IMG/VR virus record: IMGVR_UViG_3300022074_000318
Location: 1-26,487 of that record
Origin: a virus
DNA: 26,487 nt
Reading direction: 5' to 3' (one strand)
This document shows, in pieces, positions 1 through 20,267 of this stretch. Position 1 is the stretch's first letter. The number at the start of each line of letters is the position of its first letter. Made by a program: the position numbers and the translations under genes. The notes under the pieces were generated by a model. The model made no database searches, had not been told where the DNA came from, and was given only the letters and a program-made list of their open reading frames with translations.

Positions 1-3000
1 GTTAAAGCAGTTTTCATAGCAGAAATTGCTCTTTTTCTTCCGCCGTTTGTGCTTAAATCAAAACCTATATTCGTTTCAGCATTAAAACCTTTCCATACGT
101 TCATAGCGGGCATACCACCTTGCTCTTTAAAATTTGGTATACCAGCTAAAGTTTGTAAAGCAACATCATCAGGCTTAACTATTTTGCTAGCTAAAACAAC
201 ACCGTGTTTTTCTTTAAATAATTTAGCGGTAGCTTTATCTTTTTTAGCGTACTCTATTCTTTTTTCATTGCCAATTCCTCTGGCTATTGCACTATTTAAT
301 GATTTTTTACGATCGCTTCTAGTAGAAGTTTTTTCATTTTTTGCCTCGTAATAATCTAAAAAATCTTCGTTGCTTGGAGGATTGTCAATATCCCAAGAAA
401 CAGCAGGCCCGCCACCTTTTTGAAAATCAATATTTGATAAAGCAATATCTTTTAAATCATCAATATTTTTCTTTATAAATTTAGAAAAATCTTCTGAAGT
501 TTTGGTGTTTTTGCCTAATACTTCTGAAATATCTTTAAAAAGTTGCTTACTAAATAAATCATTAAATGCTTTATTACGAGAATTTACTTTTTTAAGATCT
601 GATATATTTTTACCTGTTAAAGTTTTATCGGCTTTAATTGTAGCAAGTTCGGCCAGCTTATCTGATTTGTCGTTTAATTCCTTAGGTAAATTAAATTTTT
701 CAAATACATTTCTAGTATCAGTTATTTCTGTTTTTTGGTCTTCAGCTACAACTTCTTTTGATTCGGGCGCATCTAATGTTTGCGCACCCTGCGTTACTTG
801 CCCCCCAACTCTTTCATCTAAAACTCTTATAGCTCTATTTGCTAATTGGCTTTTAGCATAACCCCCAAAAGAACCCACCTCCGGATTGTATGTTTTAGCT
901 AAACCTAGCAAAGAACTCGCTTTATTACGTTCTGTACCAAAAGTAAGGTCTGAAACAATATCTTGCTTGTTTTGATTATCAGCAAGATAATCCATTATAA
1001 ATTGATCTTGTTCTTTACTTATACCTAGTCCAACTTTGCTTATTCTATCAACAACCGCTTGCGCTAAAGGTTCATAAGCTATAGCTGCTTCCGCTTGAAA
1101 CGATTCAGGAGCATTATTTATTTTTCCGTCGTGTTTGTAGTTTTGAAATTCATTATTAACGGACCCTTCTTCAAACGCTAAATTTTCAACTATTTTAGAA
1201 GCTTCAACACCTTCTTGATCTTCCGGCTGAGATGTTGCGCCTAAATTAATTTTTTTGCCAGAAACAATTTTTCTATTAAAGTTTTTAATAAACTCAAATG
1301 CTTGTTCTCCGGTGTTAATTTTAAATTCACTCGCCTCATTAGGGTTAACAAAAGTATTTATAGAAGATTTTATATTATCTCTTAGTTTTGATAAAAAATC
1401 TTTACTTTCTTCTCTTATTATATCTTGATTTATTAAATCACTAATTACAGTAAAAAGTTCTTCTGACTGATCTTTTGTTTCATATAAAGATAACTTAGCT
1501 TTTATATTGTTTAATTGATCATTAGTAATATTGCCCTCGCCTTGCTCCATCTCAACCTGCAACATTAAATCATCTTTTACAGCGTCAAAAGCTTTTTTTG
1601 TAAGGCCTTTTGCTAGGAAAGCAGCATGCATATACTCGTGTATTGCTGCGGCTCTATTTGTTTTAGGCGCTATATCTGTAAACACCACGGCAGTTTTTGA
1701 ATCTTTGTCAAAGAACCCATCATTGCCCGCTACGTTTTCTAATATTACTCTAGCTTCTTCCTTGTTTATAGTATCACCAGCGTCTGTAGTCATCGCAGGG
1801 CTTTCGCCCTCTATAAAAGAATTTAATTTAGAAATATCATTATTAGATACTCCTAATACTTTATTAGCCCATTTTGTTTTTTTATTATGGATCTTTACTT
1901 TTTGTAAATTTGTTTGAGTAGTTAACGCATTCCTATATATATCTCCCTCAGATAATCCTTCTACTGCTTCCAAAGATTTAAATCTTTTATCTGCGGAGTC
2001 TATTAAATCTCGTTTTTGCTGTTGTAAAGAATTAAATTCTTGCTCTAATTCTTTTCTTAATATATCCTTACTTTTTTCAGATATAGAAGGATCTGACGCT
2101 GCACTAGTCCAGTTACTGTTTATTTTTCTTGATTGCCTATCTAATTCAAATACTTGTTTTTGTTGCTCTTCAGATAGCCTTAAAAACCTAGCGGAAGTGA
2201 TGTCTTGATTCTCGCTAATTGATTTTATTTTTTTAGTTATAATTTCACCAATTTGGTTTTTACGGTCAGTGGTTGTATTTTCATTTTTTAATTCTAAGGT
2301 AAGTTCAGATATTTCAGAAAGCCTATTTGCTATATCTTGCTTTTCTTGCTTAGAGGAAATTACATTGAGCATTGCAGCTCTACCAACAACACCTCCTTCG
2401 GCAACTCTAAAGCCTGTTCCTATTAAAGCACCTTGAGCCATAGCCTCATCCATGCCTTCCGTATAAGATTTTTCTTGACCGTCTATGTGTATATCAGCTA
2501 TGTTTTGTGTTAAAGTTGTTAAGCCTTCCGTACCCCCCTCTATAACAGCACCACCGGGTAAACGGGCTGCTGATTTACTTATAGCTTCTTTATATGAAGA
2601 AACAGGTATTGCCTTTCTAGCAGCCTTAAGATCATTTATAAGTTTAACAGTACCTAATCTTTCAAAAACACCTTCTGCAGCACCATATATACCACTTGTA
2701 GCTAGTTTAGTAAGATTATTAGTGTTAATTACATCATTATATTTATTTATTTGCTCAGTTATTTTATTTTTTTCGAGCTGGTCAGTTGTATTTTCTAACT
2801 GTTCTTTTAGTTTTGGTAAATTTTTTATAGCTTCTGCTTCGTTTACCGCATATTCAGAAATTCTACTAGTATATCCTGTAGTAAAAAATAATGGCAATGC
2901 AGCGGGTCCTGATGCAGCCATTATACCTGACGGCACAAAATTAATTAAAGCATCGCCCACCCACTCTGAAAATTGAGAAATGTTAGATACTGCCCCAATA

Positions 3001-4001
3001 GCAACAGGTTTTGCTAAATTTTCTTGTCTATTTTTAGCAAGCTCTTGGCTTAAATTTATTAAATCTTTTGTATACGATTTAGCTTTACCTTCTTCGCTTT
3101 TAAGCATGTCAAGCGTATAATTTACGCCTAACGCAATATCAATTCCTGTTTTAGCTAAAGTATTTTCTAACATATCTAAGTCGCTATAACTGCGCTTAAA
3201 TGCGTCATAAATGCCTTTTGTCTTATTTAAATCAGATTGTTTTGCTATAATATCAGTGCTTCTTTCTTTTAAATCTTTAAGATTAAGCTGTAGCTCTTCA
3301 ACCTCTTCAGGGGTTGGGTTTACACCCATATCAATGCTTATGTTTATAGCCTTTACTTTTTCTTCGTAAGCATTAAGATTGTCTGTAAATTCTAATTCTG
3401 ATTGAGCATACGAAGCCTCTTGTTCTTCTTTTCTTTGTCCAAGCTGTTGTTTCAATTCTTGTTGAGCATATTCTGGAACATCTTCCATGAAGTCTCTTTC
3501 TTTTGTGTCAAACTCCTCTTGCATTTTTTCAGCAAGTGTTTCATCAGGTATTTCAAGATCTACACTTGGATTTTGCAGATATTCCTCATAAAGCTCACGC
3601 TCATTAGATTTAAATTCGCCTTGTTCAAAATTATTTTTTAATTGTTGCTGAAGATTTTTTTTCTTTGTACTAATATCCTCTATAGATGTTGCTTTATAGT
3701 ATTCTTCTTCTAAATTATTTATTAACTCTTGTTTATTATCAGCTATTAAAGCTAATTCTTTTTGACGTGTTTGTTTTCTAACACTTTTGCGGGGTGATTC
3801 CAAAGAACCACTTTCCGACTGTAAACCCATATCTACGGGCTTTTCTGCCGCCGCAGGCACAGTCTCCTCCACAACGGCATTCGCCTTTCCCGCATTAGAA
3901 TCAGGATTTGATTTTTGATATTCAGCTATTACAGCATTTATATTTTCTTCGGGTTGCCCCTCATCAAGCATTTGCTGTACAATTTGTTCTAATTCGTTCA
4001 T
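1..4001 (-). CDS. Giant internal virion (polyvalent) protein, partial, with HEXXH protease motif and sigma-like region
   Basis: The reading frame is open from ATG at 4001 to the left edge without a stop, giving at least 1333 residues; the C-terminus lies outside the window. The start overlaps the preceding stop as ATGA, so the two are probably translationally coupled. Visible in order: an N-terminal helix (MNELEQIVQQMLDEG); long charged coiled-coil stretches (about 80-300); a hydrophobic glycine/alanine segment near 340-375 that could insert in a membrane; another Gly/Ala-rich segment near 500-540; a zinc-protease motif HEYMH at 788-792 with a possible third ligand at E847/E848; a stretch at about 1038-1067 (YNPEVGSFGGYAKSQLANRA) resembling sigma-70 region 2; then unrecognised sequence. 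Giant phage proteins that mix peptidase and other effector domains and are packaged in the capsid are known. Position after two internal-protein-like genes supports ejection with the DNA. The protease and sigma roles are inferences from motifs. Confidence 0.75.
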   Translation of the reverse strand, partial: MNELEQIVQQMLDEGQPEENINAVIAEYQKSNPDSNAGKANAVVEETVPAAAEKPVDMGLQSESGSLESPRKSVRKQTRQKELALIADNKQELINNLEEEYYKATSIEDISTKKKNLQQQLKNNFEQGEFKSNERELYEEYLQNPSVDLEIPDETLAEKMQEEFDTKERDFMEDVPEYAQQELKQQLGQRKEEQEASYAQSELEFTDNLNAYEEKVKAINISIDMGVNPTPEEVEELQLNLKDLKERSTDIIAKQSDLNKTKGIYDAFKRSYSDLDMLENTLAKTGIDIALGVNYTLDMLKSEEGKAKSYTKDLINLSQELAKNRQENLAKPVAIGAVSNISQFSEWVGDALINFVPSGIMAASGPAALPLFFTTGYTSRISEYAVNEAEAIKNLPKLKEQLENTTDQLEKNKITEQINKYNDVINTNNLTKLATSGIYGAAEGVFERLGTVKLINDLKAARKAIPVSSYKEAISKSAARLPGGAVIEGGTEGLTTLTQNIADIHIDGQEKSYTEGMDEAMAQGALIGTGFRVAEGGVVGRAAMLNVISSKQEKQDIANRLSEISELTLELKNENTTTDRKNQIGEIITKKIKSISENQDITSARFLRLSEEQQKQVFELDRQSRKINSNWTSAASDPSISEKSKDILRKELEQEFNSLQQQKRDLIDSADKRFKSLEAVEGLSEGDIYRNALTTQTNLQKVKIHNKKTKWANKVLGVSNNDISKLNSFIEGESPAMTTDAGDTINKEEARVILENVAGNDGFFDKDSKTAVVFTDIAPKTNRAAAIHEYMHAAFLAKGLTKKAFDAVKDDLMLQVEMEQGEGNITNDQLNNIKAKLSLYETKDQSEELFTVISDLINQDIIREESKDFLSKLRDNIKSSINTFVNPNEASEFKINTGEQAFEFIKNFNRKIVSGKKINLGATSQPEDQEGVEASKIVENLAFEEGSVNNEFQNYKHDGKINNAPESFQAEAAIAYEPLAQAVVDRISKVGLGISKEQDQFIMDYLADNQNKQDIVSDLTFGTERNKASSLLGLAKTYNPEVGSFGGYAKSQLANRAIRVLDERVGGQVTQGAQTLDAPESKEVVAEDQKTEITDTRNVFEKFNLPKELNDKSDKLAELATIKADKTLTGKNISDLKKVNSRNKAFNDLFSKQLFKDISEVLGKNTKTSEDFSKFIKKNIDDLKDIALSNIDFQKGGGPAVSWDIDNPPSNEDFLDYYEAKNEKTSTRSDRKKSLNSAIARGIGNEKRIEYAKKDKATAKLFKEKHGVVLASKIVKPDDVALQTLAGIPNFKEQGGMPAMNVWKGFNAETNIGFDLSTNGGRKRAISAMKTAL

Positions 4002-6307
4002 TTACCTTGATTATAATTATTTATATATTGCTTTGCATCAAAATTTGTAGATGGTAAGTTATCTGGAAATGCAATTTTATTAGATTGTATAATTAAATCT
4101 AATTGGGTAGCTATTTCTTCAGGCGAAGATGTAATTGGAATTCTGGCTAATACATCACCTCCACTTGTCCTAGTTGACAAACCACCATCTTTTCCCTGGG
4201 TGGTAGCTGATTTTTGAGTTGATCTAATTACTAATTCACCATCTTCAACTATTGGTTCTTGAAGGTTAGGTGCTAAGCCTATTTTCTTTATATTAGGATA
4301 GCTTGCAAAAAACGTTTCTTCTCTTGATGGAGGAGGAGTGGGAGTTTGTTTTTCCAAGCGGGGCTCTAATGCGGTATCACCTAAAGCTAGATTTAGTTTT
4401 GGATCACTAGGAGTTGCCGGCAGCTGTACTTTCGTAGCAAAATAATCAGCAGGGTTTGTAGTTTTAGTTTCTTGACCATCTGTGTTACCGGTGGTTCCCG
4501 TAGCTCCTGTAGCCCCACGAACTGTCGATGCCAGTCTTGTAGTTTCCGTAGTGTTAAAGTAAGGTGCTAATAGATCGCGTGCTACTTCGTTAAATTTTGT
4601 TTTAACAAAGTTTTCAGGAGATTTAGATTTGTCATTAGCTGATAATTTAACAGCTAGATTAAAATCTTTAGCATCCATTCCGTCTCCGTCCCAATTATTC
4701 TTACTAGCATAAGCTCTTATGGTTGTGTTGTCATCAAGCTCTGCATCAAACATTCTATTTAAATAAGGAGATAACTCTTCAAAAGTCATAGGGCGCTTGA
4801 CTTTAACGCCGTTAACATCTTGATAAGTTGTAGAATATTTATCTGGGTCTTTTCTAATCATATCAACAACCCCGTTAACATAATCGAATGCGTTTTTTTT
4901 GGTAATATATTTAGGACCTTTGCCATCAGCAAGCATAGCTTTTACGGATTTTAAATAAGGCATTCCGCCTCTAGTTGAGCCTGCGAGCATAGTTTGATTT
5001 TCAACGTCTATTACACCTAGTACACTGCCTCCCCTGGTGATAGTCATAAGCTCATCTGTTTGTTCAGAAGTCATTGCTCCAAAGTCTATATTGTCTGCTT
5101 CGTAATCTTTGGTAAAATTAGTAATAACACCTTTAGTGCCTTCAACTAAGCTTAATATTTCATTCGGTACTTGTTTAGCATTATTATACTTAACAGTAAA
5201 CTCACCTTCTCTACCTTCAGCATAGTATTGTTGTCGTTGTTGCAACAACTCAACTATTTCTTTTTTCTTATTAGTCAAAAGCTCTTTTACAGAATTATCA
5301 AATATGTCATTTCCAGTTCTACCCGCTACTAATCCAGAAAATTCTTGAGTGTAATAATCTTGCAAATCGGCGCTAACCTGGGCATCATAATTTTCTCTAT
5401 CAACCCCTATATTATAGCCTTCTGCAGCAGCTGCACCAATTCCCATCCACGCAGGAGCAGACATTCTTTGTTTTTTCTCAACAAAAGTTCTGCCTTCTTG
5501 AAATTGTGACTGTTGGCCTCTACTGATAACATCAGAAGCTACACCTCTTTTTCCAACTAAATAGCTTGTTTGAGACGTACTTCCGCTACTTCCACTACCT
5601 CCCCCATATACAGTAGCTAAACTTCGCTGTGAACTAGGTCTTCTATTATAAGTTTGCCTAGTTCTTCCAAGGGGTGTGCTTTTTAAACGCGTAACACCAG
5701 AGCTACCAAGAGTTGTTGAGCTTTCTATTTCAGGCTTTCCAATAGCAGATCCTGTAACATATTCTCCTTCATCTGTTCTTGTTACATTTACAACATTATT
5801 AACACCTTTAACTTTTCCAGTAGGGTCTTTGGTGCCGTGCTTTTTAACATTATAAGCTTTAGCTTCAACAACTACATTTTTAGCGTGCGCCTCAGCTTGA
5901 GCCATAGTAGCACCGGGGTTATTCTTTAAAAAAGTTTGTCTAGCATCATTTTCAAGCATAGAGTAACTATAAACCTCATTCCCGGTAGTAGCAGTAACTG
6001 GGCGAGGATTTAAAGTTGCAAGTTGTAATTTTTTCGGCTTGGTTTGGTCTTGTATTGGTTTTGCCAAAATATCACTCGCTTGGTTTTCTATACCACTATC
6101 CTCTAGGTTTTGAAGAGTATCTGTTGTTATTTGTTCAATAGTCTTATCATCTTTAGCTACTTTATCTGCTTTTTTCCGAGCATCATCTAATGCTTTTCCA
6201 ATTGCATTTCCAGCCCCTAAAATAGCTTCTCCTAGTATATTAGGGGTTGTACCTGCTGCTGCGTATAAATCAAGGTTTATATCACCTCTTACTAACTGTC
6301 TTGCCAT
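3998..6307 (-). CDS. Putative internal virion / cargo protein (769 aa)
   Basis: I do not recognise a named family. The protein starts MARQLVRGDINLDLYAAA and soon has an amphipathic Gly/Ala helix (about residues 22-43), then long low-complexity polar regions rich in Thr, Ser and Gln. A further Ala/Gly patch (GIGAAAAEGYNIG, about 286-298) resembles the glycine-zipper segments of proteins ejected through the tail. The middle part (about 300-590) is mixed helix and looks globular. A short collagen-like run (GATGATGTTGNTDG) lies near 594-607, and the C-terminal third is proline- and threonine-rich. It sits between a small internal-protein-like gene and the giant polyvalent protein, and its stop overlaps the next start as ATGA. 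An ejection or cargo role is inferred from position and composition only; a minor tail protein is the main alternative. Confidence 0.6.
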   Translation of the reverse strand: MARQLVRGDINLDLYAAAGTTPNILGEAILGAGNAIGKALDDARKKADKVAKDDKTIEQITTDTLQNLEDSGIENQASDILAKPIQDQTKPKKLQLATLNPRPVTATTGNEVYSYSMLENDARQTFLKNNPGATMAQAEAHAKNVVVEAKAYNVKKHGTKDPTGKVKGVNNVVNVTRTDEGEYVTGSAIGKPEIESSTTLGSSGVTRLKSTPLGRTRQTYNRRPSSQRSLATVYGGGSGSSGSTSQTSYLVGKRGVASDVISRGQQSQFQEGRTFVEKKQRMSAPAWMGIGAAAAEGYNIGVDRENYDAQVSADLQDYYTQEFSGLVAGRTGNDIFDNSVKELLTNKKKEIVELLQQRQQYYAEGREGEFTVKYNNAKQVPNEILSLVEGTKGVITNFTKDYEADNIDFGAMTSEQTDELMTITRGGSVLGVIDVENQTMLAGSTRGGMPYLKSVKAMLADGKGPKYITKKNAFDYVNGVVDMIRKDPDKYSTTYQDVNGVKVKRPMTFEELSPYLNRMFDAELDDNTTIRAYASKNNWDGDGMDAKDFNLAVKLSANDKSKSPENFVKTKFNEVARDLLAPYFNTTETTRLASTVRGATGATGTTGNTDGQETKTTNPADYFATKVQLPATPSDPKLNLALGDTALEPRLEKQTPTPPPSREETFFASYPNIKKIGLAPNLQEPIVEDGELVIRSTQKSATTQGKDGGLSTRTSGGDVLARIPITSSPEEIATQLDLIIQSNKIAFPDNLPSTNFDAKQYINNYNQGK

Positions 6308-6920: not shown

Positions 6921-9900
6921 TTAAGTTTGACTAATATAATATTCTGAACTTACAGCAAATAATTCTTTTGCTGTTGTAGATGAATTTCTAAGTCTTGTTT
7001 TTTGAAAAAATCCTTTAGTACCTGAAATATCTTCAGTGCTTCCCGTTGCTTGTAACACAAAATCTGTTAATGAATTAGCTTGGCCGGCTTGTATAGCGTA
7101 TAAAGGTTGCGTACCAACAATAGCCCCGTGATACTTACCCTCTTTAAAGAACCAACCTAAAAATCCAGATTCATCTGAATCAAGCAATCGTACATTTGTA
7201 ATATTATAAGTGCCATCTTGGTCACCTATTATTTCTACAGCTTCCCAGCCTTCACCGCCTTCATAATTTAAAGATAACCAATCTGAAATAACCGTAGGAT
7301 TATCGTTAAATATTACTTGCACTTCTGAATTATTAGCTACACCATAAAAGTTATTCCTATTAGCTGTGTTGGAATTATGTAAATAAACTTTGCCATTTTT
7401 AAAAGTATAAAATCTATTATTAAGAGTTACACCTGTTTCAGGTATATAACTATACCTTGATGCCCAGCCCTGCGAAGCTAAACTATAGCCCGCAGTAATT
7501 TCGGTTGTTTCATTGGGTATTGTTTCTGTACCTATAGACGCATGACCAGAGTCATATCCCTGTATAGATAATACATACATTTTTTTATAACCGTTATATA
7601 TACCTATAATTTTATTAGAAGTGTTTAAAGCCCCTAATCGGTCTCTAAAAAAGTTACTCATGCCATTTCTACTAATGGGAAATAATTGTCCGTTAGAAGG
7701 CGTTAATTGCATTACAGAGCCACGCTTAGCGTCTGTAAAGAATATATTATTGTTAAAATAAGCAAAAGACTCAGGATGGGTGCTAATTCCATAGTTACCG
7801 CCAAAGCCCATTGCTTGGCCTAATACTAAATTTGTAGCGGTTACATTAACACCATCATCTGCATTAAACAACGCATCTTTATCTGCTAATATTTTAAATA
7901 CTTTATCTTCGCAGAAAGCTAATAAGTTTGTATCCAGCGCAAAAAGTTTTTGTATGCCGCCGTAATTAGGTTCGAGATCTTTTGTAATTCCGTCTGTTAA
8001 ATTAAATTTATTTAATTCATTTATACCAGTTCTAGAATTATATAATCCAGAAAATATTAAACCGTTTTTTCTCCGTTCTTCGCCATAGTTAGCTTCAGGG
8101 GTGTTGACCCGGATCCCTTTAACCATGGAGGTAGAGTTAAATTTATCTTGTATCTTTACAGATTCTAAATAAGTTTTATTATTTGTACCACCTATTGTAG
8201 CTATACAGTTAGACCAAGGAATAACATTTGTATCTCCGTGGTCTTCATTAATTGAAAATATCTTAGATGCTTCCCAATATAAATTAAGATTTGAATCATC
8301 ACCTGGTTCAGTTTCAAAATCTAAAAATTTTATTTCTTTAAGATCTCCCTCTTCATCTAATTCAGTCTGTTCTACAGGTATTTGAGCAAAAGACTCAATA
8401 TCTGTTTTTCTAGGAACTTTTACAAAAAATGAACCCTTTAGCTTTTTTTGACCTGATTCAGATAAACCTAATCTAAAAAATTTTAATACAGGTTGCGGGA
8501 TTTCATTAAAATTCCAGTCACCATAACCTTTGCTTTGACCATATGTGCCGGTTCCTGGGACTATATCAATTCCTTTTAAATTAGTTACTATGTTATCATC
8601 ATCTAACCTATCTCCAACAACAAATTTAAGAATATTTTTTTCATTTTGTGCGCTTCCATCATTACTGTTCATCCCGAAAGTAATTGATTCAACTAACATT
8701 TTTTTAGTTTCAATCGTTTGTCCGGCTGGAAGTCCATTATGTCCTTGCTTCAAGGCTATTTGCACGCAAAGTCTTTCTGCAAAATTTTGCATATTTACAA
8801 CAGTAGTTGTGCTAGTCAAATCAGTTTTATTAAGCGTAGTTGTACCTCCTTGAGACGTAATATATCTGTTTATAGCAGAAATATTTAAACACGCAACGTT
8901 ATTTGGATCCATCTTCCTGCTCATAATAAAAAACTCCTGGTTATTAGCTGAGTTTGAATTAACAGGAATAAGTTGGTTAGATGAGGACGCAGTAGAACTT
9001 AGACTTTGATTAAAATTACTAACGCTGGTTGTATTACCACTTCCGATTTCAAATTGTTTTATAGTCTCTCTTTCAATAACTTGAGACTTAACTACATCAG
9101 GTGCCTCATTTTCAATGTCTAAAACAGGCAATCTTGAAAGCTCTTCTAGGGTAACACCCCTGCTGTCTGTACCCGACATACCATCTCTTCTGGGCATTAA
9201 AAAAGAATCTTCTGTTACTTTATTTCTATCCTTAGAATCAAACTGTAAATATACATTAGCTGTTTCTGTGTCGCCTGGTTCTCCATCTAAATACGTATTA
9301 AACGCAGTTAAGTTAAAAAAGTCGGTTGAAACGTCTTTAACATAGTACTTATAATATCTTGCCCATTCAGGAGGTGCGCTAGCAATTTTTGCCGCTAATT
9401 TTATTCTGCTTTTATAACAAAAAGCTGTTTTTATTAAAGAAGTATTATCTGTGTTTTTTCCTGTAGTCTGTGTTAATAAACCACCTTGCCTGCCATACTT
9501 GTCTAAATAAGACACGCCAACATCATAAGTTCTGTTTGTTTTAACAGAAGGCCCTGAAACTGGATCTAATTGGCCTGAAAGGCTAACCGCTACTTCAAAA
9601 CCTTTACCACCTAAATCATCTTTATTTTGATTATATTTAGATAAATAATTACCATACATTATTCTATTAGCGGTAAATTCTTGAGATTTAGCAGACCTTG
9701 GAACAGAATCAAATTGTCTAGTTAGTTCTGTATCTGGAAGAGCCGCACCAAATGCTCTTTTGGATATTATTATACCGTTTAAAGTACCTTGGCCTCTTTC
9801 GGAAGGATCTATTTCTATTGTTTTTAATATGTAAACAGTGCTGGAAATAGACTCTGTATATAAAATATCAATAGATACAACATCTTCTCTGCCTTTAGGA

Positions 9901-10112
9901 ATGTCGTTGATTATGATGTTTTCTAAATCATTTATCATAGAAACATTAAAACCTTTTTCATATCTATCATTTAATACAGTTGTATCTTGTTTTTTTGAAA
10001 CAAATTGCACTTCTGTAAAAGGCGCGTATGGTGAAAACTCTCCATCATCATATTTGTATCTATAGCTAATGTAAGGAAATATTTTTTCAAAAGGCTTTTG
10101 TTTTTCTGCCAT
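6921..10112 (-). CDS. Tail nozzle/stabilisation protein (P22 gp10-like, crAss muzzle-like), third and main piece
   Basis: At 1063 aa this holds the central and C-terminal part of a protein family that forms the distal nozzle of podovirus tails. The family's usual mid-protein signature stands here at the very N-terminus (PYISYRYKYDDGEFSPYAPF, about 13-32). Further in are GGIQKLFALDTNLLAFCEDK (about 716-735) and GISTHPESFAYFNNNIFFTD (775-794), typical of the beta-propeller part of the family, followed by ISRNGMSNFFRDRLG. Family members normally have about 200-500 residues before the YRYKYDDGE motif; here they are missing and are found instead in two upstream genes (15657-16283 and 10126-14274). 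The start has AATTAATAAAAAAAT before it, like the other genes, so it looks like a real initiation site. It should sit at the tail tip, closing the DNA channel and contacting the receptor. Family membership is from remembered motifs; the exact name is uncertain. Confidence 0.75.
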   Translation of the reverse strand: MAEKQKPFEKIFPYISYRYKYDDGEFSPYAPFTEVQFVSKKQDTTVLNDRYEKGFNVSMINDLENIIINDIPKGREDVVSIDILYTESISSTVYILKTIEIDPSERGQGTLNGIIISKRAFGAALPDTELTRQFDSVPRSAKSQEFTANRIMYGNYLSKYNQNKDDLGGKGFEVAVSLSGQLDPVSGPSVKTNRTYDVGVSYLDKYGRQGGLLTQTTGKNTDNTSLIKTAFCYKSRIKLAAKIASAPPEWARYYKYYVKDVSTDFFNLTAFNTYLDGEPGDTETANVYLQFDSKDRNKVTEDSFLMPRRDGMSGTDSRGVTLEELSRLPVLDIENEAPDVVKSQVIERETIKQFEIGSGNTTSVSNFNQSLSSTASSSNQLIPVNSNSANNQEFFIMSRKMDPNNVACLNISAINRYITSQGGTTTLNKTDLTSTTTVVNMQNFAERLCVQIALKQGHNGLPAGQTIETKKMLVESITFGMNSNDGSAQNEKNILKFVVGDRLDDDNIVTNLKGIDIVPGTGTYGQSKGYGDWNFNEIPQPVLKFFRLGLSESGQKKLKGSFFVKVPRKTDIESFAQIPVEQTELDEEGDLKEIKFLDFETEPGDDSNLNLYWEASKIFSINEDHGDTNVIPWSNCIATIGGTNNKTYLESVKIQDKFNSTSMVKGIRVNTPEANYGEERRKNGLIFSGLYNSRTGINELNKFNLTDGITKDLEPNYGGIQKLFALDTNLLAFCEDKVFKILADKDALFNADDGVNVTATNLVLGQAMGFGGNYGISTHPESFAYFNNNIFFTDAKRGSVMQLTPSNGQLFPISRNGMSNFFRDRLGALNTSNKIIGIYNGYKKMYVLSIQGYDSGHASIGTETIPNETTEITAGYSLASQGWASRYSYIPETGVTLNNRFYTFKNGKVYLHNSNTANRNNFYGVANNSEVQVIFNDNPTVISDWLSLNYEGGEGWEAVEIIGDQDGTYNITNVRLLDSDESGFLGWFFKEGKYHGAIVGTQPLYAIQAGQANSLTDFVLQATGSTEDISGTKGFFQKTRLRNSSTTAKELFAVSSEYYISQT

Positions 10113-10125
10113 ATTTTTTTATTAA

Positions 10126-13100
10126 TTATAAAGTAGGATAACTTAAAATACCCGACGTATCATATCTAACCTCAATTATTTCTTGTGCGTTTTGTAATAA
10201 CCAACCCCCTTTAAGATAATAGTGTGTTGGAAGATTTTTATAATTTCTAGGATTAGTAGAAAAAGCAAACTTTTTTAAATCTAAAGAGGCAGGAAAAATA
10301 TAAATATTATATCCTCCTTTTATATGCCTTTCTGAACCATTAAAAGGTAGTTGATCATTTATAAAAGTTCGTCCAAAGTCAGTATTTCTTGCCTTAGGTG
10401 CATATATCTTTAACGAATTTCCAGACCTAACTACAGTAGCACCATCGGGACCAGTTGCACCATACAGTGAAACCGCTCCACCACCACCACCACCATCATT
10501 CGCCCCAAGATATGTTCTTTGATTTTCTGTCCAATTAGCCTCTTGGAATTCATTTTGCATCCATGTGGAGTTGTCTGCATACTTGCCAGTTACATATTGC
10601 CATTCAACATTAGAATTTATGTTTATTTGAACATAAGGCGGAAAATATAAACCGGCAGCAGCACGTCTTTTTACATCAGCGTGCACAAACATACCTGAAG
10701 GAGATCCATTTTTAAAAACACCTGCTAAACCACCAAACGGCGCATGAGGGCTCCAATATACCGCGTCGTTAGTAGCTTCTATTTTAGCCTCAATAGGAGC
10801 GGGATCTTCCATGTGAAAGTCCCGTACTGCATCACCTAGTTGAGTTTTCACCGGGTCTACATTATCAAATTTATATGTAAAATAAGGCAATATGTAAAAT
10901 TTTTTTCCCACAACAGCGCTGGGGAAATTATCAAAAAACGGCAAATAATTACTATATGAGCCGCTTGTCCCTAAACTATCTGCACTAGTTGGAGCTAATT
11001 GAGAATAAGCTTTAACATTATGCTTATTCCAGGCGTTACTAGAATCATTATATTGAGTTAAAAAATTGTCCGGTGAGCTAGGCTTTGACAAACTAGAGTT
11101 TTCTAAAAAGTAAAAACCGTATTCAATTATCTGCGGAATAGGCTTTCTTTCATATGCAAATTCGGCTTTAAGTCTATTTTTAGACCTAGCCGAAGCTTGT
11201 TCGCCTGAAATTCCAGGATTTAAAATAAACCCAGAAGTATCTGGAGGTATTATATCAAAATATATAATTTCTGGAACTTCAATGTTCGCATTAATAGAAT
11301 TATTTATTAATTTATAATCTGAAATAACAGTATGAGAATTACCATTATAGCTGTATTCAATAAAACCAGCTGCGTAATAATCTACCTGCTCTATGTTCCT
11401 AACTATACGAAAACTATCTGCTGTTGAACCTTTAAAATTATTAAGAGATATAAAATTCCCCAAAGAACTTCCTGCACCAAAAATATCTTCGTAGTCTACT
11501 CTAATTCTATTAGTAGCACTCGCCATTGTTGCAGCATTACCTGATTGATCTGCAAATGGCTGTGGAAATAAGGAAGCCTTTTTAACAAAAATTCCTGCGT
11601 CTGTTATTGAAGAAGCTGTTCCACTTCTAAAACTATATTCAAAATCAACTCTAGCTTCAATTTTTGATTTTAAGTATACATCTTTTACAAAAACTGTAGG
11701 AGGATGTAAAACATTAGTAGTATTTTGAGCCGTATTAAAACTTTGTAAAGATCCGTAATGATTAGAATTAATTATAGCATTTAAGGTTTCAGATCCATTA
11801 TAAGAAATATCTCCGCTTACGCTTGTTGTTTGTACAGGTTTTACATAAGGCACGTAATAATATACACTTTTAGGGTTTAATCCTGTTATATCTGCTTTAA
11901 AATCTAAAAAATCATTTGTTGATTGATTTATATGATTATTTGCTGTGGTCGTGTTTACATCTGTAGAAACATATTTTGTCGCACCAGCTATCCAAGCATC
12001 TAAATCAGGGTTTCTTGAATCCGATAAAGACCTAGGAACACTAATATTTGTTCCTGCGACTGCAGCCGCCGGCGGTTTAACTGTGCTTACATAAAAACCT
12101 ATCTCAGATATATCTTTACCTGTATTATTAATACTTGAGTTTAATGTAACAGTACTACTAGTAATACTTGTAGCATCTTGCTCTAGCGAATTCTTATTTA
12201 AAACTATTGGTGCTCCTATAACATTTTTAGTTAATTTATCTTTTACTTTAGTATTTGAAGCGCCTGAATCTATGTTAAATGCATCTGTATAATGCGTTTT
12301 GCCGTCTACTACCACATAACCAACAGCTGCCCAATTTTCCCCTAGGGGTTTTATATTATTATTAGACATGTGGTTAAACTCATTATTTGTTAGACCAGGT
12401 ATCTCTATAGCGTTTGTAACCGTATATCTGCCTTTATTGTTGCTACCTGCATGAGGCGAAAATGTAAGCTCGCTTTTAGAGATCTGTATACTGGTTGAGT
12501 TAGAAGAATTTATAATTTCTTCAACTGTATCCCATTTTCCATCTTTACTATTTGCTATTTCTTGCGCGGTAAAAGGTTTTGAAACTATGATCCCTATATC
12601 TTCTAATGTTTTTGTGTCATCAAACTTAATAAGGTCTAATTCATATTTAACTTCTATATCTTTAATACCTGCATCAGAGGCTGAATTAGCTTTAGTATCC
12701 CACGTGGAGCTTGTTATAGCAATCGTAGGATTATTAACAGTATTTACTGGAACTTTAAAATAATTTACTCCAGCTGCCTTTTCATTACTTCCAGCAAACC
12801 CGGTGTGTTTTATATAAGCAACATATGCTACTTGCTCTCCCTGTGCCAAATTACCTGGTAGAAAGCTAGCAATATCTAAACTAAACTGTCCCCCCTCTTC
12901 GAAATCATAACCTGTTACAGGAACTTTAAATGTATCCGAAGTATTTTTTAATGGGCTACCAGAAAAAGGACCTTTAATAACATCTTGTTGTATTGTAAAA
13001 TCAGGAGAATTTCTAAAATAAAAACCAACTTCTGTAACTTCCATTTTGGGGTGAAGCATTTTTCTATTTCTAACATTACTATAAGTATAGCCTGAAATTA

Positions 13101-14274
13101 CAAGAGTGTTAGCATTAGTTGTATCTCTTGCACCGGTAGAATAAACGGTGGGAGGCAGTGTTGTTTGCGACTTAAACTTTTTTATTGCTTGGTTTGAAGT
13201 CGTTAAAGCCTCACCATAAATAATACCATTTTTATTTTCAGCATAAGGAACGTAGTAGTAAAAATGATTTGGCTTGGGCGCTTTTGTAATATATATTTCA
13301 TTTGGATCTCTATAATCTGCGGGAAAATTATGCCCGCTGTCGATTATTTCTTGTACAGTAGGGGCAGGATCGTTGTCATTTAGTCTTCCTTCGGCTACAT
13401 AAAAGCCTGCTCTAGTTATGGGCGAGCCTCCATCGCTTAAATACTTAGCTGAAAATTCATAATCCGTTTGACTTATTTTTTTTTCTGGTTGAGTGACTAA
13501 ACTAGTGGGCGCAGTTGAAGATACAACTTGGTTATATACATTTATTGTTTTTACAGGGCTATAGATTATTTCTTCTTGTCCTCTTAGCTTTATAAAAGCA
13601 ACAGCACAAAATTTACCAGTTGTTAAAGAAGAGCTATAGTATGGGGAGTTTGTATCAATACCTTCTATATTAAATACAGAAGTAGCGCTGCTACCATCTA
13701 ACACATAATCACCTGTAACTTTTGTAGAAGTAACGCCTTGGTTTTTTATTAAGTCTTCTATACTGCTATCTGTTTGAGAATATATAAACCCTCCATCCAC
13801 TAAAGAGCCGCCTCCAAAAAAAGCTTTTGCTTCCATCTTAACTAAATCTATAGAGGTAGCTTTAAAATCTAATTCAACTCTTCCTTTAGCGGGGTCTTCT
13901 TGTTTTAAAGCACTTTCTCCATCAGCTATTTCTAGTTCTTCTACAGTAACATCATTAATAGTTAGATCATCTCTTCCAATACCAAAATTTTCTGTTACAA
14001 CAGCTGTAGAAAGCTTTTTATCAGAAATACCAGCGTGATCTTTTATCACGGTTATATCTCTTTCTTCAAAAGGTCTTCCATATATATGAGTTGTTCCAGA
14101 AGAGTGGTCAACTTTTACATTTAAAAATTCTCCAGTTGTGCTATCTCCTCTAAACTTTTCTATGTTAATTTTTTTAGGCTCTGTAACACCGTCTGAATAA
14201 AATAACATATTATCTACTATATTAATAGCTGTTATTAAACGCGTTGGATCAAATTGTAATATATTACTTGCCAT
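10126..14274 (-). CDS. Nozzle protein second piece fused to FN3-like repeats and a putative adhesin tip (1382 aa)
   Basis: Residues 1-80 carry the segment that in relatives follows the first propeller blades (RLITAINIVDNMLFYSDGVT, then EPKKINIEKFRG, then ERDITVIKDHAG). After this come about seven irregular beta-sandwich repeats of roughly 100-155 residues (about 140-245, 255-368, 372-508, 512-668, 690-848, 858-990, 1000-1150). Each has a 'GFYV/GFYF/GIFV' strand and most have a later 'YYYVPY/YVAYI/YILPY' strand, as in fibronectin-III-like repeats of Bacteroidota surface proteins. The C-terminal 220 residues are Trp/Tyr/Gly-rich with a hexaglycine run (1261-1266) and YGATGPDG, which suggests a receptor-binding tip. 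The gene lies 13 bases before the third nozzle piece. The likely role is to decorate the tail with host-binding arms anchored to the nozzle. The anchor is inferred from residues 1-80; repeat borders are by eye. Confidence 0.7.
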   Translation of the reverse strand: MASNILQFDPTRLITAINIVDNMLFYSDGVTEPKKINIEKFRGDSTTGEFLNVKVDHSSGTTHIYGRPFEERDITVIKDHAGISDKKLSTAVVTENFGIGRDDLTINDVTVEELEIADGESALKQEDPAKGRVELDFKATSIDLVKMEAKAFFGGGSLVDGGFIYSQTDSSIEDLIKNQGVTSTKVTGDYVLDGSSATSVFNIEGIDTNSPYYSSSLTTGKFCAVAFIKLRGQEEIIYSPVKTINVYNQVVSSTAPTSLVTQPEKKISQTDYEFSAKYLSDGGSPITRAGFYVAEGRLNDNDPAPTVQEIIDSGHNFPADYRDPNEIYITKAPKPNHFYYYVPYAENKNGIIYGEALTTSNQAIKKFKSQTTLPPTVYSTGARDTTNANTLVISGYTYSNVRNRKMLHPKMEVTEVGFYFRNSPDFTIQQDVIKGPFSGSPLKNTSDTFKVPVTGYDFEEGGQFSLDIASFLPGNLAQGEQVAYVAYIKHTGFAGSNEKAAGVNYFKVPVNTVNNPTIAITSSTWDTKANSASDAGIKDIEVKYELDLIKFDDTKTLEDIGIIVSKPFTAQEIANSKDGKWDTVEEIINSSNSTSIQISKSELTFSPHAGSNNKGRYTVTNAIEIPGLTNNEFNHMSNNNIKPLGENWAAVGYVVVDGKTHYTDAFNIDSGASNTKVKDKLTKNVIGAPIVLNKNSLEQDATSITSSTVTLNSSINNTGKDISEIGFYVSTVKPPAAAVAGTNISVPRSLSDSRNPDLDAWIAGATKYVSTDVNTTTANNHINQSTNDFLDFKADITGLNPKSVYYYVPYVKPVQTTSVSGDISYNGSETLNAIINSNHYGSLQSFNTAQNTTNVLHPPTVFVKDVYLKSKIEARVDFEYSFRSGTASSITDAGIFVKKASLFPQPFADQSGNAATMASATNRIRVDYEDIFGAGSSLGNFISLNNFKGSTADSFRIVRNIEQVDYYAAGFIEYSYNGNSHTVISDYKLINNSINANIEVPEIIYFDIIPPDTSGFILNPGISGEQASARSKNRLKAEFAYERKPIPQIIEYGFYFLENSSLSKPSSPDNFLTQYNDSSNAWNKHNVKAYSQLAPTSADSLGTSGSYSNYLPFFDNFPSAVVGKKFYILPYFTYKFDNVDPVKTQLGDAVRDFHMEDPAPIEAKIEATNDAVYWSPHAPFGGLAGVFKNGSPSGMFVHADVKRRAAAGLYFPPYVQININSNVEWQYVTGKYADNSTWMQNEFQEANWTENQRTYLGANDGGGGGGAVSLYGATGPDGATVVRSGNSLKIYAPKARNTDFGRTFINDQLPFNGSERHIKGGYNIYIFPASLDLKKFAFSTNPRNYKNLPTHYYLKGGWLLQNAQEIIEVRYDTSGILSYPTL

Positions 14275-14276
14275 AT

Positions 14277-14525
14277 TTATATTTCTGTATATTGTACTAT
14301 AACAAAACCGTCATTTTGTTTAACCTGATTTATAACTTCTAATTCATCAATTGAAATACTATTTTCTATGTATATTGTTTCCCCTAAGTTAATAACATCT
14401 TCTTCTTTAAAATTTAAATTTAGCATGTATTTATTTTTTATAGAATCTATTTTTATTTTAGCGGGTGCTTCAAAAATAGTTTTTGAGTTTATTTCATTTG
14501 AAGGGTGTAAAATTATTTCTGCCAT
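14277..14525 (-). CDS. Small hypothetical beta-rich protein between nozzle pieces (82 aa)
   Basis: Not recognised. It begins MAEIILHPSNEINSKTIFE and alternates short beta-strand-like stretches (KIKIDSIKNKYMLNLNF, GETIYIEN, GFVIVQYTEI) with acidic residues; there is no signal peptide or membrane segment. Its ATG shares one base with the stop of the preceding FN3-like gene (TAATG), and it ends two bases before the 1382-aa nozzle/adhesin gene, so all three are almost certainly translated from one message with coupling. Being embedded between tail-adhesin genes suggests a small structural or assembly partner of these proteins, but nothing in the sequence shows this directly. Confidence 0.6.
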   Translation of the reverse strand: MAEIILHPSNEINSKTIFEAPAKIKIDSIKNKYMLNLNFKEEDVINLGETIYIENSISIDELEVINQVKQNDGFVIVQYTEI

Positions 14526-15634
14526 TATGTAGTATATGTTATATTAACAGTAGGGGTGCTCCCTAATAAAGATGGTGTGCCCTCAAATATTATTCCAGGC
14601 ACTGTACCAAAAATAGAGGTAGAAGTATCTTCTACATAATAATCAAAGTCTACTCCTTCTGTTTTACCCGTTACTGTTACAGATAAATTTTCAGCATTAA
14701 AAGAACTAGCAAAAGAACTTGCACTAGTAGAGGTTATTACTGAAGTTGTATTATTTAGAGGAATTATACACCGTTCTTTTTCACCAGATAAAACTGGCCC
14801 TAATATATATGTTGCATTAGGCGCAATTGAAGTGTTATGATTGTATTCATAACTATTTATATCAGCATTAGCCACGTGTACTCCTGTTAAATTTAAAGTT
14901 AGTGTTGATGTAAAATAAGTACCCGAAGGAGCCCCGTTGTTTATTCTTATTGTTTTTGATTGAATACCGGTTATAGATGGAATAAATATTTGATAACTTG
15001 TATTAGCGGCAAAATTATCTACATATATAGACGCGGTTTTAGTATTAGATCCAGAACCATTAGCTGCTGCAAAAGTTAAACCAGACGGAGACGAAGAAAA
15101 TCCAGAAAGGCTAGAATGTAACGATGTTGTAACAGTTCCGTTTGCTCTTAAACCATCATTAGATGGAGCTGATATATTTAAATAACAATCACCACTAGCT
15201 TTAAAAAAACTTCCATATCCTAAATTTCTGTGTACTACTTCATCTGTAGCATTACCAGTAGTAACATCTGCTATAGCAGGAACAATAACATATTCTATAC
15301 CACTTATCCTATTAACAGGAGGCGGTGTTTTTGTTGTAAATGTTTGTACAGCGCCATTGCCGGTTCCTACAGAGTTAATAGCAAATCCAGCGTAACTAAT
15401 AAGTTTATTACTAGGTAAAGCAGTTATATCTTTAACGAACTTATTCCTAACATTAGAATTTGTTACAGTAAATCTAGTTATACCTGCGCCGCCGTTGATC
15501 AGTTCACTTAATGTTAAAGCCGTATTACTTGCTGTTTTATAGCCATAATAAAACCCTTCTGACGTGACATTAACGCTGTCGTTAGTCAAAGAAGCCGATA
15601 TAGTAGCGGTAGTTTCACCTATTGTTAAAGGCAT
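14525..15634 (-). CDS. FN3-like / Ig-like tail adhesin component (369 aa)
   Basis: A Ser/Thr/Asn/Gly-rich all-beta protein. Residues 1-102 match the same repeat type as the downstream 1382-aa protein: TATISASLTNDSVNVTSEGF, then FYYGYKTASN, then LPSNKLISYAGFAINSVGTG, ending QTFTTKTPPP. In Bacteroidota proteins this pattern (TATISG..V.SEGFYYG...L.N..Y.YAGFA.NS.G......FTT) is a fibronectin-III-like domain. The remaining 260 residues hold further beta-strand-rich segments (ANTSYQIFIPSITGIQSKTI) without a family I recognise. Translation starts almost directly inside the first repeat, with no anchor or leader, so it may be assembled onto the tail through other proteins. It lies 22 bases after the first nozzle piece and overlaps the 82-aa gene by one base (TAATG). 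A tail adhesin or decoration role is inferred from repeats and position. Confidence 0.65.
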   Translation of the reverse strand: MPLTIGETTATISASLTNDSVNVTSEGFYYGYKTASNTALTLSELINGGAGITRFTVTNSNVRNKFVKDITALPSNKLISYAGFAINSVGTGNGAVQTFTTKTPPPVNRISGIEYVIVPAIADVTTGNATDEVVHRNLGYGSFFKASGDCYLNISAPSNDGLRANGTVTTSLHSSLSGFSSSPSGLTFAAANGSGSNTKTASIYVDNFAANTSYQIFIPSITGIQSKTIRINNGAPSGTYFTSTLTLNLTGVHVANADINSYEYNHNTSIAPNATYILGPVLSGEKERCIIPLNNTTSVITSTSASSFASSFNAENLSVTVTGKTEGVDFDYYVEDTSTSIFGTVPGIIFEGTPSLLGSTPTVNITYTT

Positions 15635-15656
15635 AATTTACTTTTTAATAATTAAT

Positions 15657-16283
15657 TTAAAGTGTTATAACTTCTGGAGATGTTATACTAGCTTGAGTTG
15701 CAGATACGGTTCCTATTAACATTTCTCCTCCATTTTGAAATTCGCTAGGTACAATTCCTCTAACAGTTACTTTTTTTGTAGCATTAGATCCTGTTGTGTT
15801 TGGGCTAAAATTAGGTGTTAAAGACTCTACATCTACGTCAGCATCTACAGAAATTGTACCATCTTGCGCAACTCCAGCAACTGCATTAATTTCAGAAAAT
15901 AATAAAATGTTGTTTACAGTAGTTGACAAAACAGAACTGTCTAATATAATGGGCTTTGTTTGATTTGAAGATGCTGTTAAATCATATTCAAATATACCGT
16001 CCATTTTATCACCTGTAACAAAGAAATATATTTTTTCTTCTTCAGGATGTGGTATGCTACCTATAACTTTAGCATTAGGATTAGATGATGAACTTAAACC
16101 TAAAATATCTTGTCCAGCTAAAAGTTCATTACCTTTTAAATTTTCAATAGCGCCAATATTTCCATCTTCTGAAAAATCTACACTAACGTTAAGTGCGTCT
16201 CTATATTCGCCCGGCTTTAATATTTTTTCTTCAATATCTTTATTCATCCGAGCAGCCTGAAACGTTCTTTTGCTTTCTGCCAT
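15657..16283 (-). CDS. Tail nozzle/stabilisation protein, first (N-terminal) piece (208 aa)
   Basis: The first 55 residues match the well-conserved N-terminus of the phage tail nozzle/stabilisation family: FQAARMNKDIEEKILKPGEY, then YRDALNVSVDFSEDG, then NIGAIENLKGNELL. In relatives this opens a long protein that goes on to propeller blades. The first blade is here too (VIGSIPHPEEEKIYFFVTGD, FEYDLTASS), after which the protein drifts into a beta-rich stretch (KKVTVRGIVPSEF, EVITL) and stops. The sequence that should come next (LITAINIVDNMLF, EPKKINI) is the N-terminus of the gene at 10126-14274. The protein therefore looks like an independently translated N-terminal fragment, not a complete family member. 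It follows the 314-aa neck gene by 6 bases, which is the usual place of the full-length gene. The start MAESKRTFQ is set by the motif position. Confidence 0.7.
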   Translation of the reverse strand: MAESKRTFQAARMNKDIEEKILKPGEYRDALNVSVDFSEDGNIGAIENLKGNELLAGQDILGLSSSSNPNAKVIGSIPHPEEEKIYFFVTGDKMDGIFEYDLTASSNQTKPIILDSSVLSTTVNNILLFSEINAVAGVAQDGTISVDADVDVESLTPNFSPNTTGSNATKKVTVRGIVPSEFQNGGEMLIGTVSATQASITSPEVITL

Positions 16284-16289
16284 TTAATT

Positions 16290-17234
16290 TTAGTGTTTAA
16301 TCCATTTAGCTTTACCTCTTAATACTTGAGCAAGCTCTTTTAAATTATAGTTACTTAATCTTATTTTTGCATTTCTTAGCTTAGCACTAGCTTCTTTTTT
16401 ATACAAAGGTGCTAGTTGAGCGCTAGCTGGTCGAAGTTTAGACAAGTTGTATAACATATAAGCATACAACGCATCTTCTGCTAATTTAGGTATAAAAACA
16501 TTTGCTAAATTACCATTATCTGCAATACCATCAGATATATAGTCAACCGCTATTACATTAGAGTCAGCAAATGTACCATCAAAATAAATTAATCCTTCAG
16601 CTTCGCTTAAAACATAATAACCAGTAGCATTCATGTCTTGTGGATTGCCACCAAATCTTTTATTAAAATATGAAAAATTATCATTATTATAATTAGAATA
16701 ATAATATTCTTCTGCAGATTGTGGCGTATTAGCAGGGTTATTTTCATCCTGAAAACGAGTTATTGTATCTGATGAGCTAGCTACTTGCAAATCCCCGTTA
16801 CTGTCAAAAGTGTATTCGTAGTTGTTGTCCTGTAATGGTCCCGTTGGATTACCTGTGCTTCTTTTAGGTAGCAGACATTTTTTAATTCCGTCATCTCCTA
16901 CAAAAGAAACCTGTACTATTGATACATAGTCTTGCGGAAGAGGGAAGGTTTTAGCTGGTCCCAATTCTGCTTCAATGCTTTTTTGACTATGCAGCACATC
17001 ATAACTAAATTCTTGTAATCCTCTTTGTGCCCAAAAGTCTACTTCATATCTTGGGATTTTTGTTAAAGCTTTTTCTTCGCCTATATATGCAACGATAAAA
17101 TTGTTTATTACATCTTCTAAACTAGTTCTTCTATAATATCCTAATCCTAAAAAATCAGAAGGAATATTTCCCGTGTCGCCCTGATGTTTAGCGTAATAAC
17201 CTCTTTCATTATAAAGTTTTCTTGTTTCTGCCAT
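16290..17234 (-). CDS. Neck/ring (head-to-tail connector-type) protein (314 aa)
   Basis: The protein has the features I recall from a widespread structural protein of crAss-like phages and marine phages that sits in the head-tail neck: an N-terminal helical segment DVINNFIVAYIGEEKALTKI, then YEVDFWAQRGLQEFSYDVL, then FPLPQDYVSIVQVSFV (about 97-112), and a basic C-terminus ending GKAKWIKH. The middle (about 125-215) is Asn/Asp/Tyr-rich and poorly conserved. Length and gene position (after a 234-aa ring-type protein and before the nozzle protein) also fit. Its ATG shares one base with the preceding stop (TAATG). Likely role: a ring below the portal that joins head and tail, comparable in position to P22 gp4 tail accessory protein. 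The family resemblance is from memory, so the specific ring number cannot be given. Confidence 0.65.
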   Translation of the reverse strand: MAETRKLYNERGYYAKHQGDTGNIPSDFLGLGYYRRTSLEDVINNFIVAYIGEEKALTKIPRYEVDFWAQRGLQEFSYDVLHSQKSIEAELGPAKTFPLPQDYVSIVQVSFVGDDGIKKCLLPKRSTGNPTGPLQDNNYEYTFDSNGDLQVASSSDTITRFQDENNPANTPQSAEEYYYSNYNNDNFSYFNKRFGGNPQDMNATGYYVLSEAEGLIYFDGTFADSNVIAVDYISDGIADNGNLANVFIPKLAEDALYAYMLYNLSKLRPASAQLAPLYKKEASAKLRNAKIRLSNYNLKELAQVLRGKAKWIKH

Positions 17235-17938
17235 TATCTTTCAGATTGAATTATTTGTTGTTCTTTTGCTGATGCAACCTGCGCAATATCGGCTGCTCTT
17301 ATAATAACACCTGCATAAGATAATATTTTAATTACTAACTCAGGAAATTCTGAGCTATGCAGTTCAAAATCTTTATAAGTAGTCGCTGATGTATTGGCAA
17401 CTACTTGACCTGCTGTAGTACCCCCAACCCATTGCGGGTCGGCTGGCTTTCTTACATAATTTATTAATATACTAGAAATACCACTTGTTGGGTGTATTAC
17501 CACCCCACCTTCATGCCTAACATATAAAGGGTTATTTGTTGTAGGCTTCATAAGTGGTGATCTGTTTATATAGTTTAATTTTTTATTAGTAACTTCTTGT
17601 ATAGATATATTATTTGTGCCAATGCTACTTAGTCTGTAAAAGTTAGTAGGATAAGCATAATAACTAGCGGTAGTATTCCCCGCGGCGTTATTAAAAGACC
17701 CGGCTGCTATTGTTTCCTCGTTTTCAAATTCAGCAATTTTTTCCTCTATATTTTTTTTAATATCAGAATAATCCGAGTCATTAGTTATAGCATAGTTTCT
17801 TGAAGAAAAATATCCTTCAAAAATTTCACTTTGCGCTTGAAGAGCTAAGGTGTTAAACTCTCTGGGCACAATATAACCTCTGTTTTCTTTATTAAGGATA
17901 TTTAAAACTGTTTTATAAACATTATCTATACTTACCAT
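17234..17938 (-). CDS. Conserved neck/ring structural protein (234 aa)
   Basis: It begins MVSIDNVYKTVLNILNKENR, then GYIVPREFNTLALQAQSEIF, a helical N-terminus I recall from structural genes of Bacteroidota phages that lie beside the connector gene. It continues with a short beta-rich region (PLYVRHEGGVVIHP, about 139-152; LINYVRKPADPQW, about 159-171) and ends in a helical stretch with FELHSSEFPELVIKILSYAG. No membrane segment or enzyme motif is visible. The stop overlaps the next start (TAATG), so it is probably made in fixed ratio with the 314-aa neck protein. Upstream is a 56-base gap with two interlocking hairpins, which may control its translation. Assignment as a neck ring is inferred from neighbours and remembered family resemblance. 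Confidence 0.6.
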   Translation of the reverse strand: MVSIDNVYKTVLNILNKENRGYIVPREFNTLALQAQSEIFEGYFSSRNYAITNDSDYSDIKKNIEEKIAEFENEETIAAGSFNNAAGNTTASYYAYPTNFYRLSSIGTNNISIQEVTNKKLNYINRSPLMKPTTNNPLYVRHEGGVVIHPTSGISSILINYVRKPADPQWVGGTTAGQVVANTSATTYKDFELHSSEFPELVIKILSYAGVIIRAADIAQVASAKEQQIIQSER

Positions 17939-20241: not shown

Positions 20242-20267
20242 TTTTTAATTTTTTATTGTTTAAGTTT
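20242..20267 (-). promoter_or_regulatory. A-rich translation initiation region of the capsid gene, no Shine-Dalgarno
   Basis: Reading towards the ATG the minus strand is AACAATAAAAAATTAAAAA followed at once by ATGGCA. No AGGAG-like element is present within 25 bases. The same kind of A/T tract without purine-rich SD precedes the portal, scaffold, 241-aa, 234-aa, 208-aa, 369-aa, 1063-aa, 191-aa and 769-aa genes. This matches the SD-independent, A-rich initiation known for Bacteroidota and supports the chosen starts and the host inference. Confidence 0.55.

Follow-up and report, generated by a model that had tools for sequence, protein, structure and literature searches.

The window analyzed here, a 26.5-kb virus record, carries a block of muzzle-type genes on its minus strand. 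Along that strand the gene order is terminase, portal, a capsid-type gene, and two ring-type genes, with the muzzle genes following directly within the structural block, which is the position of a crAss-type tail muzzle. The name "ring protein" for the two upstream genes is taken from synteny with crAss001. Among the matches listed, the closest named relatives of the capsid protein (44-49% identity) are Maribacter phage Panino, the Flavobacterium elemo phages, and ctfjg026: phages of marine flavobacteria and one spring-water phage. Three other large ORFs of the window (20253-21467, 3998-6307, and 3-4001) have no significant family match, the last showing a weak PHROG match (E = 0.0095).

An earlier note on this DNA had described a tail nozzle protein divided among three genes, here called N, M, and C. 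We find all three ORFs as described, each with its own ATG, an A/T-rich start region, and a TAA stop; the block also includes a gene for an 82-aa protein, which the note had not counted (Table 1).

Table 1. Features of the muzzle gene block and its upstream neighbors (window coordinates)
Feature	Position	Strand	Evidence or remark
C chain, 1063 aa	6921..10112	-	phrog_14478, E 3e-85
M chain, 1382 aa	10126..14274	-	38-46% identity to middle block of one-chain relatives
Small 82-aa protein	14277..14525	-	overlaps arm gene by 1 nt; part of muzzle block
Ig/FN3-type arm, separate 369-aa chain	14525..15634	-	81% identical to second part of 579-aa L009/L010 N-arm fusion
TAA-to-ATG restart cassette, 28 nt, separating N from arm	15632..15659	-	junction sequences
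N chain, 208 aa	15657..16283	-	phrog_14478 columns 2-141, E 2e-18
Ring protein gene, upstream of muzzle genes	16290..17234	-	phrog_13977, E 2e-35, virion structural protein
Second ring protein gene, upstream	17234..17938	-	phrog_14543, E 8e-42, virion structural protein

The family phrog_14478 consists of one-chain proteins (1474 columns), and the N and C chains match it at successive columns, C in three stretches of which the best covers columns 864-1202. Placement of each ORF by profile search, as the note had envisaged, thus succeeded for N and C; M alone matches no library family (PHROG, Pfam) and was placed by its identity to relatives. The first ~80-90 residues of M lie precisely where one-chain relatives (L022, L024, L026, and others) pass from the N part to the C part: In L022, N 1-138 is found at residue 1, M 2-91 at residue 123, and the start of C at residue 333. 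M-profile E-values in the one-chain relatives are about 1e-24. Given this order and these match strengths, the pieces are collinear, well above chance. The assignment of M to the middle block of the muzzle rests on these roughly 80-90 residues.

Measured against the crAss001 muzzle protein gp44, the N chain covers gp44 1-108 (propeller blade 1 and an N-terminal extension) with its residues 1-118; what follows is an Ig-like domain and the first strand of an FN3 domain, as read from the predicted fused homolog L010. Residues 1-80 of M are equivalent to gp44 about 109-160 (propeller blade 2), and residues 81-1382 form a hypervariable arm. The C chain comprises IG1, IG2, a variable (crass-domain) region at 341-598, propeller blades 3-7, and the ring-joining end. 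Its variable region is 49% identical to that of L011, and the flanks of that region 95-99%.

Against the Pfam muzzle families the window's own chains score 21 and 18 bits, under the cut-off of 27, and their membership is based on PHROGs, close relatives, and fold. Among the selected relatives scored against Pfam, C chains of the split genes in L017, L035, and L040 pass the crAss_MUZ_C cut-off, and the one-chain proteins of L043 and L044 pass both crAss_MUZ and crAss_MUZ_C; together with the structural model described below, this bears out the placement in the muzzle/nozzle family. A profile of C chains found no real match among PDB sequences, and fold comparison was used in its place. Since the protein is spread over three to five ORFs in place of one polypeptide, we regard it as a variant and not as an ordinary member of the crAss-type tail muzzles.

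Distribution of the split among relatives

The three signatures were expected to lie in order on one polypeptide in relatives, and N, M, C1, and C2 are indeed found on one chain in 61 related ORFs, where a median of 2 residues separates N from M. N is separate from M in 26 contigs (window included), and M is separate from C in 23 of these, a count that omits L012 and L013, which end too early, and L042, where M and C are fused. The split contigs include some near-identical pairs; one of them, L101, is an independent public MAG record. In a midpoint-rooted tree of the two ring proteins, whose genes adjoin the muzzle genes, all split contigs fall in one clade (support 89 with L042, 99 without), and one-chain L043/L044 is its sister. 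In the L043/L044 proteins N runs nearly straight into M, and M is joined to C1 by no more than a short linker. L042 is an early intermediate: N with its arm is followed by a separate 543-aa ORF and then by M and C fused in 1195 aa.

Six split-clade contigs of 48-65 kb each hold a single complement of N, M, and C pieces, which match successive parts of the one-chain protein (about 1-110, 103-190, 173-510, and 701-1338), and no second muzzle was found in them. Each chain starts at its own ATG after an A/T-rich stretch, with N-termini conserved among relatives, and the M-to-C gap varies among relatives, with all three values modulo 3 (0, 1, and 2) represented. Reading on in frame past every stop in the window leads to further stops. 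We looked for intron RNA between the pieces and found no Rfam family match in the window; the inserted genes match no PHROG or Pfam family, such as a splicing domain of an intron or intein.

N, arm, M, and C are all under purifying selection (dN/dS 0.02-0.27). The cores of the split contigs are mostly 50-100% identical to the window, and many arms are only 20-45% identical or replaced. The comparative data support gene fission with modular insertion, as the earlier note had proposed, since the split clade is monophyletic, its sister is one-chain, L042 is intermediate, and variable arms occupy both cut sites.

Further variation in gene structure was seen across the family. In L043, L065, L084, and about 25 other N-M-C one-chain loci, the muzzle's C-terminal portion (with an end resembling KELFAV.SE.YIS) is on a separate downstream ORF of about 107-141 aa, often a few kb away: another fission site. 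L095:6509-18682 encodes a muzzle of 4057 aa on a single chain, in which 846 aa separate M from C1 at the site of the window clade's cut. In L092:8761-13544 the muzzle lies in three ORFs, while a near neighbor, L098, is intact; this looks like frameshift or assembly damage. Finally, L100 has a C chain of the split-clade type on a contig in a MAG labeled Woesearchaeota, probably a misbinned virus.

Cut sites, arms, and predicted fold

With hhalign, residues 1-144 of the one-chain sister L043 align to gp44 1-150 (E = 7e-7) and a late part to gp44 1049-1281 (E = 8e-9). The fold was examined on a relative of the window, in the predicted structure of the natural M-C chain of L042 (mean pLDDT 73.5). 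Model residues 1-1191 align to gp44 109-1370 (Z = 15.6 over 625 residues), and the next structural match after the crAss001 muzzle has a Z of 11.4. Foldseek places two crAss001 muzzle entries on top (7qol_P, E = 5e-27), with the nozzle entries of SU10, T7, and P22 ranking below them. Propeller, IG domains, crass region, and ring-joining end are thus all present in the predicted L042 chain, which stands in for the window's own, and single propeller matches (about 1-1046) span the M block and the C blades.

We place the first cut near gp44 residue 108/109, at the predicted blade-1/blade-2 connection, because the N-terminal part of L043 aligns there and the L042 model starts at gp44 109. The second is at the predicted blade-2/IG1 junction, between L042 strands 74-79 and 101-108, taken as the last strand of blade 2 and the first of IG1, respectively; its position as read from sequences is about 88-91. 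By homology and the L042 model, the propeller would receive roughly one blade from N, one from M, and the remainder from C. The predicted N-arm fusion of L010 has a four-stranded sheet at 72-116, and its residues 1-59 are of low confidence, as expected for a piece without its partners.

A hypervariable arm follows each of the two main cuts. An FN3-type gene had been noted in the gap after a separate N gene, and this arrangement holds in the window, L008, and L011, where it represents a further split; however, in most split relatives N and the Ig/FN3 arm after it form one protein (573-930 aa). Where these three have the restart cassette, the fused gene of L009 shows a single GAA codon. Since L008 groups with L009/L010 in the ring-protein tree (support 99), the cassette was either gained once and then lost, or moved by recombination.

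The predicted L010 fusion consists mostly of confident Ig/FN3-type domains from about residue 125. Residues 200-313, which are homologous to the window's arm chain together with the end of its N chain, are predicted to fold as FN3 (Z about 12, 1.6-2.3 A over 91-97 residues); the FN3-like character assigned to the inserted arm is thereby upheld for the N side. For the first FN3 domain, the fold match starts at L010 residue 200-201; the end of the window's N chain falls at L010 208, inside a predicted strand at 205-213. The third cut therefore divides the first FN3 strand, so that the claim of cuts between domains stands for the two main cuts but not for this one. The geometry suggests that the N chain may hold the arm by donating an FN3 strand.

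Arm domains match no Pfam family, and neither the FN arm nor the 3′ end region of the M gene (124 codons, window 10126-10500, the arm end) has a match in phage records. The arms probably contact the host surface, and we infer a receptor-binding or adhesin role, though not necessarily as the sole receptor binders. Homologs of the 82-aa protein (69-84 aa) are encoded immediately ahead of M in most split relatives (L008, L010, L032-L036, and others) and were not found in L017, L018, L019, L021, L037, and L040. The gene is weakly constrained (dN/dS 0.35-0.70), and its product is a possible accessory of the muzzle.

Known systems and interpretation

The nearest structural counterpart, crAss001 gp44 (PDB 7QOK/7QOL; Pfam crAss_MUZ and crAss_MUZ_C; PMC10172136), has the same order of blades, IG1, IG2, crass-type variable region, later blades, and ring-joining end, and its gene directly follows a ring-protein gene, as here. 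It is, however, one chain of 1371 aa, compared with three to five chains and arms at the blade-1/2 and blade-2/IG1 sites in the window clade; length variation among crAss muzzles has been described in the IG2 and crass regions (PMC10172136). The close named isolates Cellulophaga phi38:1 (gp97), the Flavobacterium elemo phages, and Tenacibaculum Gundel_1 have homologous N, M, and C blocks but, unlike the window, carry all three on one chain (1324-1470 aa) in their muzzle-type virion proteins. In ctfjg026 (MW202828), Cellulophaga phi19:3, and Maribacter phage Panino the muzzle is likewise split, over two ORFs, but at a different site towards the C-terminus that leaves the N-terminal parts together. 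The T7 gp12 and P22 gp10 nozzles share the propeller and ring-joining fold, P22 gp10 aligning from residue 77 to the end of the L042 model (Z about 9); each is one chain without the IG2/crass domain and without arms at the cut sites. In the literature searched, coverage of which is incomplete, we met with no muzzle or nozzle divided in this way.

We propose, with a probability of roughly 80%, that these genes encode a multi-chain version of the hexameric crAss-type tail muzzle, its gene cut twice, with arms at the cuts and N, M, and C chains assembling at each position. An ancestral one-chain gene would have been cut once where blade 1 connects to blade 2 and once at the blade-2/IG1 junction, with long arrays of arm domains placed at both. 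Each of the six muzzle positions would then hold an N chain (blade 1 and arm), an M chain (blade 2 and arm), and a C chain contributing IG1, IG2, the crass domain, blades 3-7, and the ring-joining part. The arms would end freely, without return into the propeller, and so could be lengthened or swapped. In the window subclade, the N-side arm would have been cut off again inside the first FN3 strand, which N may supply. A single ring-shaped propeller must probably be put together from several chains, and that the three chains would complete one propeller is well supported by homology.

N and M might instead be tail-fiber proteins that have kept a muzzle blade as an attachment tag, with C closing a smaller propeller alone and the N and M blades docking elsewhere on the tail. 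Layouts with an anchor and a variable fiber are common in phages, and the N-arm and M chains are mostly arm and strongly variable; yet the blade cores are conserved, there are no replacement copies, and in the L042 model the M block joins the C blades in single propeller matches, the whole following gp44 from residue 109. We therefore think this quite unlikely. A single giant polypeptide after all, made by frameshifting, read-through of stops, or the splicing of an intron or intein, is very improbable. Other crAss-like phages do have recoded stops, introns, and inteins (PMC7886860), but the TAA stops backed by further in-frame stops, the varying M-to-C frame offset, the lack of an Rfam match in the window, and the conserved new gene starts led us to reject all four routes. 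The chance that an assembly or sequencing error broke one frame is negligible: L092 looks fragmented next to the intact L098, but the same cuts recur with conserved starts in 25 further contigs, one from an independent public MAG, which excludes such an error, in line with the earlier note.

A different objection accepts the multi-chain anatomy and concerns its cause. The fission may be real but the cuts neutral, fixed by chance in tolerant loops, and exchangeable arms would bring no advantage. In favor of this, insertions are found at the same two sites without fission (as in the single chain of L095), and C-terminal splits recur in relatives; on the other hand, fast evolution marks the arms at both cuts, which are replaced even between relatives whose cores are conserved, and the split is kept throughout the clade. 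We consider neutrality unlikely.

Returning to the multi-chain muzzle, it is possible, if a little doubtful, that the blades serve as plug-in anchors: Swappable adhesin arms would each donate one blade to a shared seven-bladed ring, a further arm in the window subclade would be held by a donated FN3 strand, and the host-contacting tip would be a modular multi-chain assembly. A whole phage clade appears to build the seven-bladed propeller gating genome ejection from three genes. With a one-chain sister and an intermediate at hand, the stepwise fission of an essential structural protein is directly testable, and the split suggests a way of varying the host-contacting arms without disturbing the gate.
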